A DNA stretch of 64,000 bases. Origin: Reyranella sp. Its GTDB lineage: Bacteria > Pseudomonadota > Alphaproteobacteria > Reyranellales > Reyranellaceae. Below the pieces are notes generated by a model that worked only from the letters and a program-made list of their open reading frames with translations, was not told where the DNA came from and made no database searches. This document shows, piece by piece, positions 1,012 through 13,860 of this stretch. How positions within the stretch are numbered: the stretch's first letter is position 1; each line of letters opens with the position of its first letter. A program made the translations under genes and the position numbers. The DNA lies in the NCBI RefSeq assembly GCF_004297405.1, contig NZ_SCVC01000021.1, forward strand, positions 186,001 to 250,000, given 5' to 3'.

Positions 1012-3762
1012 TCAGCTCGCCTGCTTCTTGAGAAGCATCGCGCCGAGGCCGAGCAGGACGGGAACGGCAATCAACAAGGCCAGGAATGCGTTCGTCAGGT
1101 CGGCGAATTCGAGCGCCTTGGAAAAGGTGCCTCGCGAAATCGTCACGAAGTAGGTCGTCGGGTAGATCTGTCCGATGAAGGCGCCAAAGCCCTGCAGCGA
1201 AGAGACCGGATCGACCATCCCCGAATATTGGGTGGCGGGGAGAAGCGTGATGAGCGCCGTGCCGAAGATGGCGGCGATCTGGCTCTTCATGAAGGAGGAG
1301 ATGACCAGTCCCATGCTGGTCGCGATGACGATATAGAGGAAGGCAGCGGAGGCGAAGGCGAGGAAGCTGCCGGTGAAGGGGACGCGGAAGATGAAGACCG
1401 CGAACGCCGCCAGCATCAGGAAGTTCAGCATTCCGAGGACGACGTAGGGGAGCTGCTTGCCGATCAGGAATTCGAGCCGCGTGACCGGCGTCACGTAGAA
1501 ATTAATGATCGACCCGAGCTCCTTCTCGCGCACCACGCTGAGGGCAGCGAGCATGGCAGGGATCATCAGGAGCAAGAGCGGTATGACGGCGGGGACCATC
1601 GCCACCAGGCTCTCGATTCCAGGGTTGTAGCGAAAGCGGACGGCGAGATCGAAACTGCCGACGGCTGCTCCTTTGCCGCGAAGCTCGCGGCTCTTTTGGT
1701 TCAGCCAGGTTTGGTGCACGCCCTGGACGTAGCTGCGTACGGTTTCGGCGCGTGACGGCTGCGCGCCATCGATCCAGGCGCCGATCTCGACCTTGCGACC
1801 GCGCGCGACGTCACGGCCGAAGCCTGGTGGAATCTCGATCGCCAGACTGAGTTCGCCGTTGCGCATGCGGCGGTCGAGGTCGGCGTAGTCGGTGATCGGT
1901 GCCTTTTCCGTGAAATAGCGCGAGCCGGCGAGCTGCAGCGCATAGTCTCGGCTCACGGTCGTGTCGTCGCGATCGAGGACAGCGAAGGTGAGATTCTCGA
2001 TGTCCATGTTCATGCCGTAGCCGATCACGAACATCAGGATGACGCTGCCGACCATGGCGAGTGTCGCGCGGATCGGATCGCGCCGCAGTTCGAGTGCCTC
2101 GCGTCGCGAGTAGGCGAACATGCGACGGAAATTCAGGAACTGCCTCGTGCCACCCTGAGGCGCATGGGCCTCCTCGATCTTTGCCGCGCTCGCCGCCGGA
2201 GGTGGCACAGGCGGCGATGCTGGGCCGACCTGTTTGATCGCATCTTCCAGATAGGCGACGAACGCCTCCTCCAGCGTGGCGGCAGAGCGCTTCTCGACAA
2301 TGGCTGCCGGCGTGTCGCTGATCAGTACCTTGCCGGCATGCATCAGCGAAATACGGTCGCAGAGCTCGGCCTCGTTCATGAAGTGGGTCGAGACGAAGAT
2401 CGTCACGTTTTCCTGGCGCGAGAGGTCGGACAGGATCTGCCAGAAGCCGTCGCGCGCGACAGGGTCGACGCCCGAAGTCGGTTCGTCGAGGATCAGGATG
2501 TCGGGAGAATGGATCAACGCCACCGCGAGAGACAGGCGCTGGCGGATGCCGAGCGGAAGCGCGTCGGGCAGCGCGTCCATGACGTCGGCAAGGCCGAAGC
2601 GTCCCACCAGATCGTCGATCCGGCTCGGAATGGCTTCCGGCGGCATGGCGAAGAGGCGGGCGTGGAGATCGAGGTTCTGCCGGACCGTCAGCTCGGAATA
2701 GAGCGAGAAGGCCTGGGACATGTAGCCGACCCGGCGACGCACTTCGATATCGTGGGGATCGACCTCCCGGCCGAACAGGCGTGCCACGCCCGCGCTGGCC
2801 GGCAGGAGCCCGGTCAGCATCTTCATGGTCGTGGTCTTGCCGCAGCCGTTCGAGCCCAGGAAGCCAAAGATCTCGCCACGTCCGATGCGGAAGCTCACAT
2901 CGTCGACCGCCGTGAAGTCGCCGAAACGCATGGTGAGGTGTTCGGCTTCTATGGCGATCGCGTCTGCGGCATCGGGCGCTCGGGGCGGCATGACGACGTT
3001 CTTATGACCGCGGCGGCGCTCCTCCGGCAGCAGCGCGACGAACGCTGCGTCGAGGGTCGCTGCTCCTGTTCGCGTCAGCAGCTCGTCGGGCGTGCCGGTG
3101 TCGAGCAGTCGACCGCCATCCATTGCCGCCAGCCAGTCGAAACGCGCGGCTTCCTCCATGTAGGCAGTCGCCACGATCACGCTCATGCCGGCGCGATCGG
3201 TACGGATTCCGTCGATCAGCTCCCAGAACTGGCGACGCGACAAGGGATCGACGCCCGTCGTTGGCTCATCGAGGATCAGGAGATCGGGATCGTGAATGAG
3301 AGCACAGCAGAGGCCGAGTTTCTGCTTCATGCCGCCCGAGAGCTTGCCGGCCGGCCGATCGGTGAAGGGCGCGAGTCCGGTGCTTTCCAGAAGCTCCGTG
3401 ATGCGACGCCTTCGCTCGTGCGGGCCGAGACCAAACAGCCGTCCGAAGAAATCAACATTCTCGAACACGGAAAGCGTCGGATAGAGGTTCTTGCCGAGGC
3501 CTTGCGGCATGTAGGCGATTCGCGGACAGGTCAGACGTCGATGCGTTGCGTTGGCGATGTCGCCGCCGAGCACCTCGACGCGCCCCTTCTGGACGGACCG
3601 CGCGCCGGCGATCAGGGAGAGAAGGCTCGACTTGCCGACACCGTCCGGCCCGATGAGTCCGACCATCCGCCCCGATGGTATGTCGAGCGTAACGGCTTTG
3701 AGGGCCTGGGTCTTGCCATACGACAGCCCCACCGCTTCGAGCCGCACGACCGGCGCGTTCAT
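1012..3762 (-). CDS. Fused ABC transporter: two ATPase domains plus permease (RbbA/YhiH-like)
   Basis: A 916-residue fusion. ATPase domain 1 has Walker [10 protein letters not shown], signature LSGGMKQK and Walker [14 protein letters not shown]. ATPase domain 2 (about 265-510) has Walker [10 protein letters not shown], a degenerate signature LGIRQRLS and Walker [14 protein letters not shown]. An ABC-2 permease domain with several membrane segments follows (about 550-916). Domain 1 has Ala where the H-loop His normally lies (VATAYMEEA), whereas domain 2 keeps it (VSTHFMNEA). One composite ATP site should therefore be weak and the other canonical. The ATG at 3762 overlaps the upstream adaptor stop as ATGA; a longer start at 3795 is possible but less likely. 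The family is described as RbbA-like exporter subunits; the substrate cannot be read from sequence. Confidence 0.9.
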
Positions 3763-4829
3763 TCGAGCAGCTTGCCGCTGAGGCTGGATGGCCACTCGGC
3801 CTGAGGAGTCAGTCGGACGTAGGCCATGCCCGGCAAGCCGGTCTTGACGTGCTGGATGTATTTTCTCAGCAGTTCCGGAGAGATCTGCGCCTTGACCCGG
3901 AACATGAGCTTCTGGCGTTCCTTTTCGGTTTCAACCGTCTTCGGCGTGAACTGTGCGACGTCCGAGACGAAGGTCACCTTGGCGGGGATCACATACTGAG
4001 GGGCCGCATCGAGGACGAGCCGTACGTCCGTTCCGATCGGCACCTGCCCCACGTCTGCGGTCGGCAGGAAGAAGGTCATATAGACATCGCCGAGGTCGAG
4101 GAGATTGAGCACCCGTCCGCCTGCGGACAGAACCTCTCCCGGCTGCGCCACTCGGTATTGCACGCGGCCATCTCGCGGCGACTTGAGGGTACTGTCGTTG
4201 ATGTCCGCGGTGATGCTCTCGACGGCGGCCTTGGCGACCTCGATCGCAGCACCTGCATCGATCACCTGCGCTTTGGCGGCGCTGACGGCGGCTTCCGTGG
4301 CGGCAAGCTGCGCCTTGGCTGCACCAACCGCAGCTTTCGCACCTTGCTCGGTCGCACGATCGTCGTCGAGAAGCTGCTGCGATACTGTGTTGGTCTTGGC
4401 CAACTGCTCCGTTCGCACGAACTTGCGTTCCGCGGCGTCGAGCTGCGCTTCGCGTTGTGCCACGACAGCTATGGCTGCCGTCCTCTCGGCTTCCCGCTGC
4501 GCCACGAAGCTCTTGGCCGTATCGACATTGATGATCGCCCGTTGCAGTTGCGCCTCGGCCTGGCGGCGCTGGGCTTGCAACTGCTCGGTGTCCATGCGGG
4601 CGAGTACTTGCCCTGCTGTGACGAAGTCACCCTCGTTGACGAGGATTTCTTTGACCCGCCCAGGGATCTTGGCCGAGATGTCGATCTCGATCGCCTCGAT
4701 GCGGCCGTTTCCGCCGGCGATCCCGGCGGGCAGCCCATGGTCTCCAAACCTGTCCCAAGCGTAGTAGGCGGCGCCACCGAGGATTACGACGAGGATGAGG
4801 GGAAGCCAACGTTTCCAGGTCGGAGTCAT
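3759..4829 (-). CDS. HlyD-family periplasmic adaptor (membrane fusion protein, YhiI-like)
   Basis: A 356-residue protein with an N-terminal membrane anchor ([19 protein letters not shown]), a split biotinyl-lipoyl domain ([20 protein letters not shown], then [18 protein letters not shown]), a long Ala/Gln-rich coiled-coil hairpin (about 85-210) and a beta-barrel C-terminus. The ATG at 4829 was chosen over the longer 4919 start because AGAGGCGG lies just upstream and the hydrophobic anchor then begins near residue 6. It is the first gene of the exporter operon and overlaps the ATPase gene by ATGA. It would bridge the inner-membrane ABC pump to the periplasm or an outer-membrane channel. No TolC-like gene is visible here. 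Confidence 0.9.
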
Positions 4830-8824: not shown

Positions 8825-10171
8825 GTGGCGGCGCGCGCCGAAAATGCCTCGCCGCCATCTGTCCCTCCGGTCGTGACGCGGCCGTCCAATGCCATGAGCA
8901 TTCTGCCGCGCGGCGGCGTGCGCCTGCGCGCGTTGGTGCTGATCCGCTGGGCCGCGGTCGCCGGCCAGGTCTTCACTGCCGCCGTGGTCCATTGGGGCTT
9001 GGGATTCAGCCTGCCCGTGCTGGCGGTTGGTGGCGCCATCGCTCTGTCGGCGTTGCTCAATCTTACTGTCAGCATCGGCCGCCCGGCGTCGGCGCGCATC
9101 GACGATCGCGAGGCTGCGATCTTCCTCGCCTTCGATATCCTGCAACTGGCGGTGCTGCTCTATCTCACCGGCGGCCTGATCAATCCGTTTTCGCTTCTGT
9201 TGCTGGCCCCGGTCGCGATCGGTGCCACGATCCTGTCGCTCGCCAGCAACATCGCCCTCACCCTGCTCACCATTGCCAGCATCGCCGTTCTCGGCCTCTT
9301 CTATCAGCCGCTGCCGTGGAGAGGACCGCCGCTCCACCTGCCGGAGATTTACCAGGTCGGCGTCTGGGCTGGTCTTTCGCTCACGACCTTGCTGATCACG
9401 CTCTATGGCTGGCGGCTCGCCGAGGAGGCACGGCAGATGGCCGATGCGTTGGCGGCGGCGCAGGCTGCCCTCGCGCGCGAGCAGCGCATGTCGGCACTGG
9501 GTGCGCTGGCTGCAGCCGCCGCGCACGAACTCGGCTCGCCGCTTTCGACCATCGCCGTCGTCACCAAGGAGATGCAGCGCGAAATCGAGGCCGACGATCC
9601 GCTGCGCGAGGATGTCGAGCTCTTAGCGGCCGAGTCCGACCGCTGCCGGTCGATCCTGGCGCGGCTCTCGGTCGATCCGGCCGGTGACGTGTCCGATGCC
9701 TATACCCTGGTGCCCTTGCCGGCGCTGATCGAAGCCGCGGCGCAGAATTATCAGCGTGAGGAGATCAAGATCGCCTTCGAAGCGGGACCCGCAGGCGAGG
9801 GGGCGCCCAGCACGGCGCCGATCCAGGTGCGTAGCCCGGAAATCATGCAGGGTATCGGAAATATCGTGCAGAACGCCGTGTCGTTCGCCCGGCGCGAGGT
9901 GCTGATTTCGACCCGCTGGACATCTGAATGGTCCGAAGTAGAGGTCAGCGACGACGGTCCGGGCTTCTCGGAGGCATTGCTGGACGAACTCGGCACCCCC
10001 TTCATTTCGACCCGCCAGGGTGAGGAAGGCCACATGGGATTGGGCGTTTTCATCGCCAAAACACTACTGGAGCGCACCGGCGCCAGTGTCACCTTTGGAA
10101 ACCGCACGGCTGGTGCGGGTGGCGCCGCAGTGTCCGTGCGCTGGCCAAACCCCGTCTTCAAGGCTACATAG
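8825..10171 (+). CDS. regB: Redox sensor histidine kinase RegB/PrrB
   Basis: 448 residues from GTG 8825 (alternative ATG at 8894). The N-terminal half has about six membrane segments including GGLINPFSLLLLAPV, the conserved GGxxNPF element linked to quinone sensing in RegB. The dimerisation/H-box is AAAAHELGSPLSTI (His234). A Cys at 274 (ESDRCRSIL) sits where RegB carries its redox-active cysteine. The catalytic domain shows QNAVSFAR (N-box-like), DDGPGF and GLGVFIAKTLLERTG. RegB phosphorylates RegA under low oxygen or a reduced quinone pool; regA follows after 23 bp. Confidence 0.93.
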   Translation: MAARAENASPPSVPPVVTRPSNAMSILPRGGVRLRALVLIRWAAVAGQVFTAAVVHWGLGFSLPVLAVGGAIALSALLNLTVSIGRPASARIDDREAAIFLAFDILQLAVLLYLTGGLINPFSLLLLAPVAIGATILSLASNIALTLLTIASIAVLGLFYQPLPWRGPPLHLPEIYQVGVWAGLSLTTLLITLYGWRLAEEARQMADALAAAQAALAREQRMSALGALAAAAAHELGSPLSTIAVVTKEMQREIEADDPLREDVELLAAESDRCRSILARLSVDPAGDVSDAYTLVPLPALIEAAAQNYQREEIKIAFEAGPAGEGAPSTAPIQVRSPEIMQGIGNIVQNAVSFARREVLISTRWTSEWSEVEVSDDGPGFSEALLDELGTPFISTRQGEEGHMGLGVFIAKTLLERTGASVTFGNRTAGAGGAAVSVRWPNPVFKAT

Positions 10172-10194
10172 CGGCCGATGTCGAAGGAGTCCCT

Positions 10195-10785
10195 ATGACC
10201 CAGGACACCGGTGGCAACCGCCCCGTGTCGCCCGTGATCGCCGGTGCGGTGAGCAACAAAGACCGTACCTTGCTGATCGCGGACGACGATGCAGCGTTCC
10301 GCAACCGCATTGCCCGCGCGCTCGAGCAGCGCGGCTTCATCGTGACCGCTGTCGGCTCGGTTGCCGAGGCGCTGGCCCAGACCGCGCGCCCCCCCGCCTT
10401 TGCCGTCCTCGATCTGCGACTGGGCGATGGCAACGGGCTGGAGCTCGTGGGACCGCTGCGTCAGGCGCGACCGGACATTCGCATCGTCGTGCTGACAGGG
10501 TACGGCAACATTGCCACCGCCGTCGCCGCCGTGAAGGAAGGCGCTGTCGACTATCTCGCCAAGCCTGCCGACGCCGACGCGATCGAGCAGGCGCTGACGG
10601 CGCATGGCCGCAAGCTGCCGCCGCCGCCCAGCAATCCGATGTCGGCTGACCGCGTTCGCTGGGAGCATATCCAGCGCGTGTTCGAGCAGTGCGATCGCAA
10701 CGTCTCGGAGACGGCGCGCCGACTCAACATGCATCGGCGCACGCTGCAGCGGATCCTGGGCAAGCACGCCCCCCGCGAGCACTGA
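10195..10785 (+). CDS. regA: Response regulator RegA/ActR/PrrA
   Basis: 196 residues. The receiver domain has the acidic pocket ADDD, the phospho-accepting Asp73 in VLDLRLGDGNGLEL, and the conserved T and K of VVLTGYGN and YLAKPAD. A linker with the proline run PPPPSNPM follows. The C-terminal Fis-type helix-turn-helix SETARRLNMHRRTLQRIL is nearly invariant in RegA. It should control genes for respiration, photosynthesis, or carbon and nitrogen fixation in response to redox. It pairs with the upstream regB. The following livH reading frame opens inside regA. Confidence 0.95.
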   Translation: MTQDTGGNRPVSPVIAGAVSNKDRTLLIADDDAAFRNRIARALEQRGFIVTAVGSVAEALAQTARPPAFAVLDLRLGDGNGLELVGPLRQARPDIRIVVLTGYGNIATAVAAVKEGAVDYLAKPADADAIEQALTAHGRKLPPPPSNPMSADRVRWEHIQRVFEQCDRNVSETARRLNMHRRTLQRILGKHAPREH

Positions 10786-11654
10786 TCACGGCCCAGCTTC
10801 TGCTCAACGCATTGGCGTTGGGCATGGCCTATGCGCTGGTGGCGCTGGGTTTCGTCCTCGCTCTCAATGCTGCCGGCGCCGTCAACTTCGCCCATGGCGA
10901 TCTTGTCGTGCTGGGTGGCGCCGCGGCTGTCGTCATCGGATTGTGGACCGGTTTGCCGGGGCCGTTGCTGCTGCCGTTCGTGGCGCTGGCGCTCGGTATT
11001 GCCGGCATCGTCGCGGCGCGCGTGGCGATCCTGCCGCTGGTCGCTCGTCCGCCTGAAGCGACCTTCGTCGCCACCATCGCGCTCGCTGCCATGATCGAGC
11101 AGGGCCTTACCGTCACGATGGACGCCGCGCCGCGCACTGCGCCGCCACTGTTGGGAACCGGCGCTGTCGAAATCGCCGGTATTACACTCGGCCGTCAACC
11201 GATCGCCATCGTGGTTGTCGGCGCGACGCTGGTCGTTGCCATGTGGTTCCTGCTGGAGCGCACGCAGGTCGGGCGGCGCATGCGCGCGGTTTCGGCCGAC
11301 CGCCACATGGCGCGGGCCGTGGGCATTCCCGTGGCGCGCTATGTCGTCCTGTCGTTGGCGCTGGCCGGCGCCTTGGCCGGCATCGCGGGCTTCCTCCTCG
11401 GTCACCAGTTCCTGGTGGCGCCGACCCAGGGGGCCGGCCACATGCTGAAGGCCTATATCGCCGTCGCCATCGGTGGCTGGGGCAGCGTGCCGGGCGCCTT
11501 GCTGGGCGCGTTGGGCATCGGCCTGTTCGAGACCTTCGTGTCGGCGGCCGTCGGCGATGCCTGGGCTTCGGCGGCGCTCTATCTTGCCGTGCTTGCGGTG
11601 CTGGTCCTGCGTCCGCAGGGCCTGTTCGGCGAGCCGGTCGGCCGACGTGCCTGA
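10782..11654 (+). CDS. livH: Branched-chain amino acid-type ABC permease (LivH-like), start uncertain
   Basis: About 290 residues of a LivH-type permease: LLLNALALGMAYALVALGFVLALN at the N-terminus, then eight or so membrane segments, with the typical coupling region RTQVGRRMRAVSADRHMARAVGI and a terminal LYLAVLAVLVLRPQGLFGE. Family homology begins about 10782, overlapping the regA stop, but the codon there is CTG. Standard starts in frame are ATG 10689 (adding 31 hydrophilic residues inside regA), TTG 10812 and ATG 10824, which would trim the first helix. The stop is certain, the start is not. It forms one membrane half of the transporter encoded with the next two genes. Confidence 0.85.
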   Translation: MITAQLLLNALALGMAYALVALGFVLALNAAGAVNFAHGDLVVLGGAAAVVIGLWTGLPGPLLLPFVALALGIAGIVAARVAILPLVARPPEATFVATIALAAMIEQGLTVTMDAAPRTAPPLLGTGAVEIAGITLGRQPIAIVVVGATLVVAMWFLLERTQVGRRMRAVSADRHMARAVGIPVARYVVLSLALAGALAGIAGFLLGHQFLVAPTQGAGHMLKAYIAVAIGGWGSVPGALLGALGIGLFETFVSAAVGDAWASAALYLAVLAVLVLRPQGLFGEPVGRRA

Positions 11655-11668
11655 GAGGGACGCCTGAG

Positions 11669-13201
11669 ATGCGAGCCCTGGACAAATTCTGGCTCGCTGT
11701 TCTCATCCTGCTGCCGGTGCTGGCCCTGCTCGTGTTGCCGCCGTTCGGTCAACGCATGGTGATCCTGGTCGGCGTCTATGCCCTGATGGGCGTGGGCTAT
11801 CAGCTCGTGTTCGGTCAGCTCGGCGCGCTCAACCTCGCGCAAGGCGCGCTGTTCGGCGTCGGCGCCTACACCGTTGCGTTGACCGCACCGACGCTGGGGC
11901 TGCTGTCGTTACCCGTCGCGATCTTGGCCGCAGCATTGCCGGCGGCGATCGTCGCCGGCCCGATCCTGCGTCTGCAGTCGCACTACTTTGCGCTGGCCAC
12001 GCTGGCGCTTGCGTCGCTGATCCATCTCGCCGCGGTCCATGTCGAGAGCATCACTGGTGGCGCCAATGGGTTGGCGGGTTTCACGGCGTTGTTGCCGCGC
12101 GGACCGATCCTGTTGGTCATCGTCTGGATCTGTTTGATCCTCACCATTGTCGTGCAGGCCCGCTTGTTCGCTGGACCGATGGGTGAACGGGCGCGACTGC
12201 TGCGCCAAGCGCCCCTGGTGGCGGCGACTCTCGGTATCGATGGTGGACGCTGGCGTCTCGTGGCCTTTGTGATCGGCAGTGCGTTGGCGGGTCTTGCCGG
12301 TGGACTCTCGGCGGCCGTGAGCGGCGTTGTCTCACCCGAGATCACCGGCTTTCCCATCATGGTCCTTTGCCTCACCTCCGTGGTTCTGGGTGGCGCACGT
12401 CATCCGATGGGGGCGGTACTGGGGGCGGCGATCGCCGTCTGCCTGCCCGAGCTTCTGCGTGATCTGCAGAGCGCATGGTTGCTGGCTTATGCCGCCGCGA
12501 CGCTGCTGGTCGTGCTCTGGGCGCCCGAAGGGTTGGCGACGCTGATCGATCGCTGGCGCGGCGTCCGACCCGTGCCACCGGTATCGCCCGTAGTCCCGGC
12601 GCACCTGGAGGCCGTCGACGGACCGCAGCGGCTCACGCTCGATGGCGTCGCCAAGCACTTCGGCGGCGTCGCGGCCTTGCAGGGCGTGTCGTTCACGCTG
12701 GAGCGTGGCGAGGTCGTCGGCCTGATCGGCGCCAACGGATCGGGCAAGACGACTCTGCTGAACGTGATCGGGGGACTCGAGTGTGCGGATGGCGGCACAA
12801 TCATGCTCGACGAGCGCCGCATCAACCACCTCGCGCCCCACGCCATCGCGCGGGTCGGTGTCGGTCGCAGCTTTCAGAGCCTCGCATTGACCGGCGATAC
12901 GCGCACTGCTGATATCGCGCATGCTATCGAGACCGGCGCATCGTTCCTGTTGCTCGACGAACCGGCAGCGGGCGCCACGGACCGTGAACGGTCCGATCTC
13001 GCGAGCTTGATCGCACGATTGCGTGCGGCTGGCCGCGGTGTGCTGATCATCGATCACGATATCGAGCTGCTGTCGCGGACCTGCGATCGGTTGATCTGCC
13101 TCGATCGTGGCGCCGTGGTTGCAATCGGTCGGCCTGCCGAGGTCCGTGCCAATCCTATTGTACGCGCCAGCTTCCTTGGCGTCGAAGAGGCCGCGGAATG
13201 A
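11669..13201 (+). CDS. LivM permease fused to a truncated LivG ATPase lacking the ABC signature
   Basis: 510 residues from ATG 11669, preceded by GAGAGGGA. Residues about 1-295 are a LivM-type permease (YQLVFGQLGALNLAQGALFGVGAY; NGLAGF). After a Pro-rich linker, about 320-510 is a LivG-type ATPase with Walker A GANGSGKTT (about 354), Q-loop RSFQS (about 400), Walker B FLLLDEP (about 426) and H-loop IIDHD (about 460). Only about 25 residues separate Q-loop and Walker B, where LivG normally has about 95. The helical subdomain and the LSGGQ signature are missing. The frame is intact throughout. The product may work with LivF, which keeps a signature, or may be impaired. LivM-LivG fusions are known; this deletion is the odd part. 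Confidence 0.88.
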   Translation: MRALDKFWLAVLILLPVLALLVLPPFGQRMVILVGVYALMGVGYQLVFGQLGALNLAQGALFGVGAYTVALTAPTLGLLSLPVAILAAALPAAIVAGPILRLQSHYFALATLALASLIHLAAVHVESITGGANGLAGFTALLPRGPILLVIVWICLILTIVVQARLFAGPMGERARLLRQAPLVAATLGIDGGRWRLVAFVIGSALAGLAGGLSAAVSGVVSPEITGFPIMVLCLTSVVLGGARHPMGAVLGAAIAVCLPELLRDLQSAWLLAYAAATLLVVLWAPEGLATLIDRWRGVRPVPPVSPVVPAHLEAVDGPQRLTLDGVAKHFGGVAALQGVSFTLERGEVVGLIGANGSGKTTLLNVIGGLECADGGTIMLDERRINHLAPHAIARVGVGRSFQSLALTGDTRTADIAHAIETGASFLLLDEPAAGATDRERSDLASLIARLRAAGRGVLIIDHDIELLSRTCDRLICLDRGAVVAIGRPAEVRANPIVRASFLGVEEAAE

Positions 13202-13860
13202 GCGCGCCTGTCCTGCAGGTCGGTGGCCTCGCTCTCGCGGCCGGCGATATCGTGGCGCTGTTGGGCGGCAATGGCGCCGGCAAGACGGGCCTATTCGAGA
13301 CGATCCTGGGTTTCCGGGCGTCGGTGAGACCTGTTCATCTGTTCGGACGAGACGTGACGGGCTGGCCGGTCGAGCGGCGCGTGCTGGCGGGCGTCGGCTA
13401 TGTGCCGGAAGGGCGTCGTGTCTTCGCAGGCCTCACCGTGCGCGAAAACCTCGAAGCCTCCTCGTCATTGGTGCCTGTCGAACGACGGCGTCGAGTCGAG
13501 GAAATGCTGGAGATGTTCCCCATGCTCGGCGAGCGACCAGATGCACGCGCCTGGCTGCTGTCGGGCGGCCAGCAGCAGATGCTGGCATTGGCGCGCGCGC
13601 TGATGAACCGGCCGCGCCTGCTGCTTCTGGACGAACCGACCCTCGGTCTCGCGCCGCTGGTGGTCAATGACTTGCTCAGCCGGCTCGGTCCCATGGCGGC
13701 GGAGGGCATGGCGATTCTGGTGGGGGAGCAGCGCGCAGGGCTCGTGCTTCGTGTCGCCCAGCGCGGACTCGTCTTGAGCCGTGGCCGGATCGTACGCTCC
13801 GGTACGGCGTCTGACCTCGCCGCCGATCCAACTCTTGCCGACCTTATGGCCGGAGCTTGA
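13198..13860 (+). CDS. livF: LivF-type ABC ATPase with shortened N-terminus
   Basis: 220 residues, starting as ATGA over the previous stop. Walker A is GGNGAGKTG, Q-loop area VGYVPEGRRVFAGLTVRENL (diagnostic of LivF), signature LLSGGQQQ, Walker B RLLLLDEPTLGLAP, and VGEQRAG occupies the switch region as VEQN does in LivF. The N-terminal strand and the aromatic A-loop segment normally found before Walker A (of the type YGxxxALxxVSL) are nearly absent. Together with livH and the LivM-LivG fusion it forms an uptake-type ATPase pair. No periplasmic binding protein gene is nearby, so the ligand cannot be assigned. Confidence 0.88.
   Translation: MSAPVLQVGGLALAAGDIVALLGGNGAGKTGLFETILGFRASVRPVHLFGRDVTGWPVERRVLAGVGYVPEGRRVFAGLTVRENLEASSSLVPVERRRRVEEMLEMFPMLGERPDARAWLLSGGQQQMLALARALMNRPRLLLLDEPTLGLAPLVVNDLLSRLGPMAAEGMAILVGEQRAGLVLRVAQRGLVLSRGRIVRSGTASDLAADPTLADLMAGA

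Follow-up and report, generated by a model that had tools for sequence, protein, structure and literature searches.

Can an ABC importer dispense with the helical subdomain of one of its two NBDs and still be maintained as a transporter? The question is raised by a fused livM-livG gene in the window analyzed here, a stretch of 64,000 nucleotides from Reyranella sp. (assembly GCF_004297405.1, contig NZ_SCVC01000021.1, positions 186001 to 250000; coordinates below count from the first letter of the window). The signature motif closes the ATP sandwich, and the helical subdomain helps form the groove for the coupling helix; to our knowledge, both are regarded as defining and as necessary for every ABC NBD. 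One published account likewise describes NBDs as a RecA-like domain plus a helical domain (PMC7756269). In the open-licence PMC literature, we came across no transporter NBD described as lacking the helical subdomain.

The fusion gene livMG (11669-13201, + strand) encodes 510 amino acids in one open, clean frame, as an earlier note on this DNA had proposed. Residues 1 to 300 (11669-12568) form the LivM transmembrane domain, with helices in the AlphaFold2 (AF2) model and a match to Pfam BPD_transp_2 at residues 31 to 270 (115.7 bits; Pfam cut-off, 26.8), as expected of the permease of a HAAT/LivFGHM-type importer. A linker (residues 301-320, 12569-12628), the fastest evolving part of the protein with a median dN/dS of 0.59, leads to the LivG NBD (residues 321-510, 12629-13198), delimited by Pfam, AF2, and structural superposition. 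Four of the motifs of a canonical NBD, all reported in the earlier note, are in place on the + strand: Walker A, GANGSGKTT (residues 354-362, 12728-12754); the Q-loop, FQ (residues 402-403, 12872-12877); Walker B, LLLDEP (residues 427-432, 12947-12964); and the H-loop, IDHD (residues 461-464, 13049-13060). Walker A, the Q-loop, the catalytic Glu of Walker B, and DHD are present in all 34 readable orthologs from the genus. What the LivG half lacks is a helical subdomain with an LSGGQ-type signature. Only 26 residues separate Gln 403 of the Q-loop from Asp 430 of Walker B. The corresponding numbers are 88, 90, 90, and 90 in four full-length LivM-LivG fusions that served as references, namely, two paralogs from the same genome (L073 and L074, the only NBDs of this genome used for comparison) and one fusion from each of two congeners (L071 and L072). 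The shortening that had been noted, to about 25 residues, is thus real, although the figure of about 95 given for the full length was slightly high. Pfam ABC_tran matches the LivG NBD at profile positions 1 to 71 of 137 only, and the LivG equivalog model NCBIfam NF008449 scores 134.6 bits, below its cut-off of 362.

At the junction (residues 404-424, 12878-12940, + strand; SLALTGDTRTADIAHAIETGA), a degenerate remnant of the LivG signature helix, LTGDTRTADIAHAI, is joined to the Q-loop. By itself, phmmer pairs the remnant LTGDTRTADIAHAIETGA with a segment of an LptB, and in the wider pairing with LptB, which covers LTGDTRTADIAHAIETGASFLLLDEP, the helix that normally starts with the signature is still recognizable. 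Judged from these alignments, the deletion starts just behind the Q-loop and reaches as far as the signature, of which LivG retains a degenerate form. The earlier claim that both LSGGQ and the subdomain are gone therefore holds for the subdomain, whereas the signature helix survives in degenerate form. Two places where a substitute might have been found were also considered. No other gene of the operon was seen to encode the subdomain, with livH, livMG, and livF packed end to end, and a compensating change in the LivM coupling helix was dropped as a candidate because canonical paralogs have a loop similar to REAPLVAATLGI, e.g., REAPDLAESLGI in L074.

The AF2 model of LivMG, built with 32 sequences, has a mean pLDDT of 83.7, and the blocks of the NBD score 80 to 95 except for the junction block, residues 401 to 410 (61), and the last block (45). 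The modeled LivG NBD superposes on LptB (4p33_A; Z, 26.3; 1.5 Å; 185 of 235 residues) and on MJ1267 (1gaj; Z, 23.2; 1.9 Å; 186 of 253 residues), leaving 50 to 67 residues unaligned, a size that fits the missing subdomain. Among solved structures, LptB, the NBD of LPS export, comes nearest to the LivG core, and phmmer gave an E value of 1.1e-28 for an LptB; LptB itself is a homodimer with a helical subdomain and an LSGGE signature and belongs to a different transporter class. Among the VIA-align matches listed, which are filled by the NBD, there was no independent structural match to the transmembrane part. The model of the partner LivF reached a pLDDT of 94.8. As modeled, LivG is an otherwise intact, folded NBD core minus its helical subdomain.

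The same architecture extends across the genus. Among 65 Reyranella genomes, 34 hold a readable ortholog (E<1e-100; identity, 63 to 86%), named carriers of the deletion being R. massiliensis 521 and R. soli NBRC 108950, and the helical subdomain is absent in 34/34. The full region, whose presence in sister strains the earlier note had named as evidence against its own claim, was found in no Reyranella ortholog and only in other genera, and that claim stands. The Gln-Asp spacing is 25 to 26 residues in 32 genomes and 20 to 21 in two (L032 and L034), in which the signature remnant is gone too. The frame is open in every readable copy, with no frameshifted copy among them; beyond these 34, two genomes (G066 and G078) carry the operon interrupted by a contig end. 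In one genome (G088, locus L070), livMG at 3293-4708 has lost 24 more residues, leaving 18 instead of 42 between Walker A and the Q-loop, again in an open frame.

Sister genera offer intermediates. A shortened subdomain is found in seven LivM-LivG fusions, which come from sister genera in the family and from one genome of the order, with spacings of 65 to 77 residues (65 in L061, 73 to 77 in L062 and L064 to L067, and 74 in L068; L063 and L069, cut by contig ends, were left out) and signatures such as LAPGERRR, LPAG[RQ]RRL, and LSPATRR. LivF has a longer N terminus in these loci (L061, L062, and L064 to L068) than in Reyranella. The gene order histidine kinase, response regulator, livH, livMG, livF recurs in L061, the nearest of them, and not in the other sister-genus loci. 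Since the sister genera retain a shortened subdomain, the loss was stepwise and is older than the genus; on the sequences compared, the simplest placing of its completion is before the Reyranella crown. Farther away, where the best 8 candidates per genome were scored with one genome per species, a LivG NBD query matched the window's own genome only among 385 genomes across the class (E≤1e-26). Among 398 genomes of the phylum (E≤1e-21), it matched 15, one of them the window's own, and the same deletion was absent from the 13 measurable genomes of the other 14 (L114 could not be parsed), Walker A and DEP being 109 to 133 residues apart versus 68 here, a range that spans all NBDs, including both NBDs in the 8 genomes where two were parsed.

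The partner gene livF (13198-13860, + strand) encodes 220 amino acids, with an ABC_tran match of 92.3 bits and a score of 169.9 bits against the cut-off of 441 for the LivF equivalog. The earlier note was right that LivF keeps its own signature: LSGGQ (residues 121-125, 13558-13572, + strand) lies within WLLSGGQQQM, which is identical in 34/34 genomes, so that LivF has the LLSGGQQQM signature expected of an NBD throughout. It had missed that LivF is shortened N-terminally. The Reyranella protein starts about 15 residues late relative to L061, L062, L065, and L066 and therefore is missing the strand that bears the A-loop position; in the sister genera, the residue there is Tyr (L062, L064, L065, and L066), His (L067), or Arg (L061 and L068). 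Walker A of LivF, GGNGAGKTG (residues 23-31, 13264-13290, + strand), drifts within the genus, the residue following GKT varying freely among T, S, A, E, G, and R, and is destroyed in 3/34 genomes. In these three (L014, L015, and L017), the motif reads GEDSAEKT, GEDSARKT, or GDDSIAKT, the catalytic Glu is replaced by Gln (DQP), and the protein ends at 175 amino acids, with WLLSGGQQQM retained; the lost tail was sought downstream of livF, and no trace was seen. The three form one clade in a tree of the histidine kinase and response regulator (HK+RR tree). Going by these motifs, the catalytic half of the site would come from LivG and the signature half from LivF in this clade, and neither protein could complete a site with itself. 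A LivF of 175 amino acids with a broken Walker A and Glu changed to Gln was recorded for L078 (7851-8375), L079, and L077, where the livMG stop and the livF start overlap (GTGA/ATGA) and livMG is shorter by about 20 C-terminal residues. In the other 31/34 genomes, LivF has a usable Walker A, Glu, and EQR; the second site may therefore still bind ATP there.

Next, we compared the two composite ATP sites that a LivG-LivF pair could form. Site C was scored as the LivG A-loop F, Walker A, Q, DEP, and H plus the LivF LSGGQ, and site D as the LivF Walker A, Q-loop position, DEP, and H-loop position plus the LivG signature remnant, with residues that we picked ourselves from motif definitions. Over the 34 genomes, 17 of 18 positions were invariant at site C and 5 of 16 at site D, as counts uncorrected for shared ancestry, against a background majority-residue frequency of 0.78 to 0.80. 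The suggestion that one of the two composite sites could still form is thus supported by the near invariance of its residues. A pair of different NBDs in which one composite site is conserved and the other eroded is the pattern of a degenerate-site heterodimer; the further feature of such heterodimers, a RecA-like and a helical subdomain in both NBDs, is not found, as LivG is without the latter. The genes are under purifying selection, with dN/dS of about 0.1 to 0.3. In a close trio (Nei-Gojobori), medians were 0.12 for LivM, 0.14 for the LivG NBD, 0.10 for LivF, and 0.09 for LivH. Over 406 core pairs (excluding L014, L015, L017, L019, and L070), they were 0.20, 0.29, and 0.21 for LivM, the LivG NBD, and LivF, and 0.17 for LivH over 378 pairs, these wider values being rough because synonymous divergence is high. 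The most reduced LivF has a dN/dS of 0.20.

The second permease gene, livH (10782-11654, + strand, with a putative start codon), is placed by synteny and by a BPD_transp_2 match of 117.2 bits on 10689-11651 (cut-off, 26.8). Its conserved N terminus (10780-10830) is without ATG, GTG, or TTG and reads from a conserved CTG ATC AC; in the window, L036, and L038 to L040, this CTG overlaps the stop codon of the response regulator, and in L044 and L052 it lies further downstream. Translation might start at this CTG, coupled to the upstream stop, or about 14 codons further on, at an internal ATG. Upstream, at 8825-10785, lie a HisKA/HATPase_c histidine kinase and a Response_reg/HTH_8 regulator, which we take to be RegB/RegA-like; the regulator is 94 to 98% identical even in congeners without the transporter. 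Gene order at the locus is conserved among Reyranella carriers. In 26/65 genomes, livHMGF is absent and the response regulator adjoins an enoyl-CoA-hydratase-like gene (presence could not be judged in G025, G086, and G072; G074 has two copies of the regulator, of which one was examined). Presence changes at least six times on the HK+RR tree, which has 60 rows (G026, G006, G064, G070, and G087 were dropped for too little sequence of the pair; no response regulator was found in G072). The operon is present in the outgroup and in G085, the basal member, so its distribution is most simply explained by several losses of the entire operon. Its absence from 26 genomes shows livHMGF to be dispensable, yet it is not decaying where retained. 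No Peripla_BP_6 binding protein, the only such family searched, occurs within the window, all 39 matches in the genome lying elsewhere, so that the dedicated periplasmic binding protein expected beside an importer operon was not seen. Elsewhere in the window, 1012-3795 on the - strand encodes a 927-residue chain in which an ABC-2 membrane domain is joined to two ABC_tran stretches, an exporter-like fusion.

Taken together, we consider it probable that the locus encodes a heterodimeric importer of the branched-chain-amino-acid type (LivH, LivM-LivG, and LivF) running on one ATP site. A sequencing or assembly deletion in this genome has a negligible probability: we found nothing to support it, and the sharing of the deletion by 33 other Reyranella genomes rules it out. 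That the operon is decaying, the deletion being an early step of pseudogenization, was one of two outcomes that the earlier note had foreseen. While the absence of the operon from 26/65 genomes, with its repeated presence changes, and the progressive shortening of LivG or LivF in some lineages, such as the additional 24 residues in L070, could be read in this way, low dN/dS in all genes and even in the most reduced LivF, the open frame of 34/34 readable copies, a deletion older than the genus, and losses that resemble excision of the whole operon rather than decay in place largely refute this reading, which we regard as very improbable. The other outcome foreseen, a minimal working transporter, fits the data; that it works is something we infer.

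Another reading holds that the complex binds ATP but no longer pumps, being instead an ATP-gated facilitator or a sensor that works with the upstream histidine kinase and response regulator. Such a role would accord with an operon that follows this pair, livH overlapping the regulator's stop or lying close to it in both Reyranella and L061, with a window devoid of Peripla_BP_6 proteins, and with the weakened coupling to be expected of LivG. It is nevertheless unlikely, as a binding-only site needs neither the catalytic Glu nor the H-loop His that LivG keeps in 34/34 genomes; moreover, the kinase and regulator persist in 26 genomes without the transporter, and other sister genera have the transporter away from the pair. 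It is also conceivable, if quite unlikely, that LivF works as a homodimer, with LivG a vestigial, nonmotor appendage of LivM, or that LivMG borrows a complete NBD from a paralogous Liv system. LivF alone is indeed a near-complete NBD in 31/34 genomes, and paralogous Liv-type sequences are plentiful, but the LivF proteins of L014, L015, and L017, without the Walker A glycines, the Glu, and the C terminus, cannot power a homodimer, and invariant catalytic residues in LivG are unexpected for an appendage.

For the importer running on one ATP site, the following mechanism can be proposed. LivG would give the A-loop, Walker A, Q-loop, Walker B with its Glu, and H-loop, and LivF would give the LSGGQ that closes over that ATP. 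LivG and LivF would close on this single LivG-held ATP, sealed by the LivF signature, and hydrolysis would reset the pump; LivG-LivF dimerization, the hydrolysis of one ATP per cycle, and the import of a substrate are all presumed in this scheme. LivF would be moved via its normal helical subdomain, and LivG via the covalent bond with LivM and what is left of its RecA-like surface, the LivM-LivG link presumably replacing the lost coupling-helix socket. The opposite site, made of the LivF Walker A and the LivG signature, is degenerate, so that the signature-bearing subdomain of LivG would have become unneeded and been lost stepwise; LivF, for its part, has shed its A-loop strand and, in one subclade, also Walker A, the catalytic Glu, and its C terminus. 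It is tempting to speculate, and we lean slightly toward this view, that the two NBDs are complementary halves of one motor, with LivG binding and hydrolyzing ATP and LivF becoming increasingly a supplier of the signature only, a course completed in the G001/G028/G036 subclade.

Compared with known systems, the complex resembles LivFGHM/HAAT importers (LivG, e.g., MJ1267, 1g6h; LivM-LivG fusions) in its two BPD_transp_2 permease domains and two different NBDs but departs from them in a LivG minus its helical subdomain (26 versus 88 to 90 residues), in the shortened N terminus of LivF, and in a window without Peripla_BP_6. With CFTR, MRP1, TM287/288, and Pdr5, it shares one conserved site and one eroded in both NBDs; these are described as exporters (CFTR as a channel) in which residues are changed and both subdomains kept, whereas here the system is importer-type and a subdomain is deleted. 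Degenerate-site ABC transporters are well described, and in Pdr5 all NBS1 motifs are altered (PMC7756269). If the proposed reading is true, a single ATP site is enough for an ABC importer to work, and on one side it can do without the helical subdomain and hence an ordinary coupling-helix socket. The natural series, in which the subdomain goes from full through shortened to absent while selection continues to act and several further reductions occur, amounts to a collection of ready-made deletion mutants and makes the need for two ATP sites and two coupling sockets testable, and the Reyranella complex would provide a one-site importer for comparison with CFTR and with degenerate-site exporters such as Pdr5.
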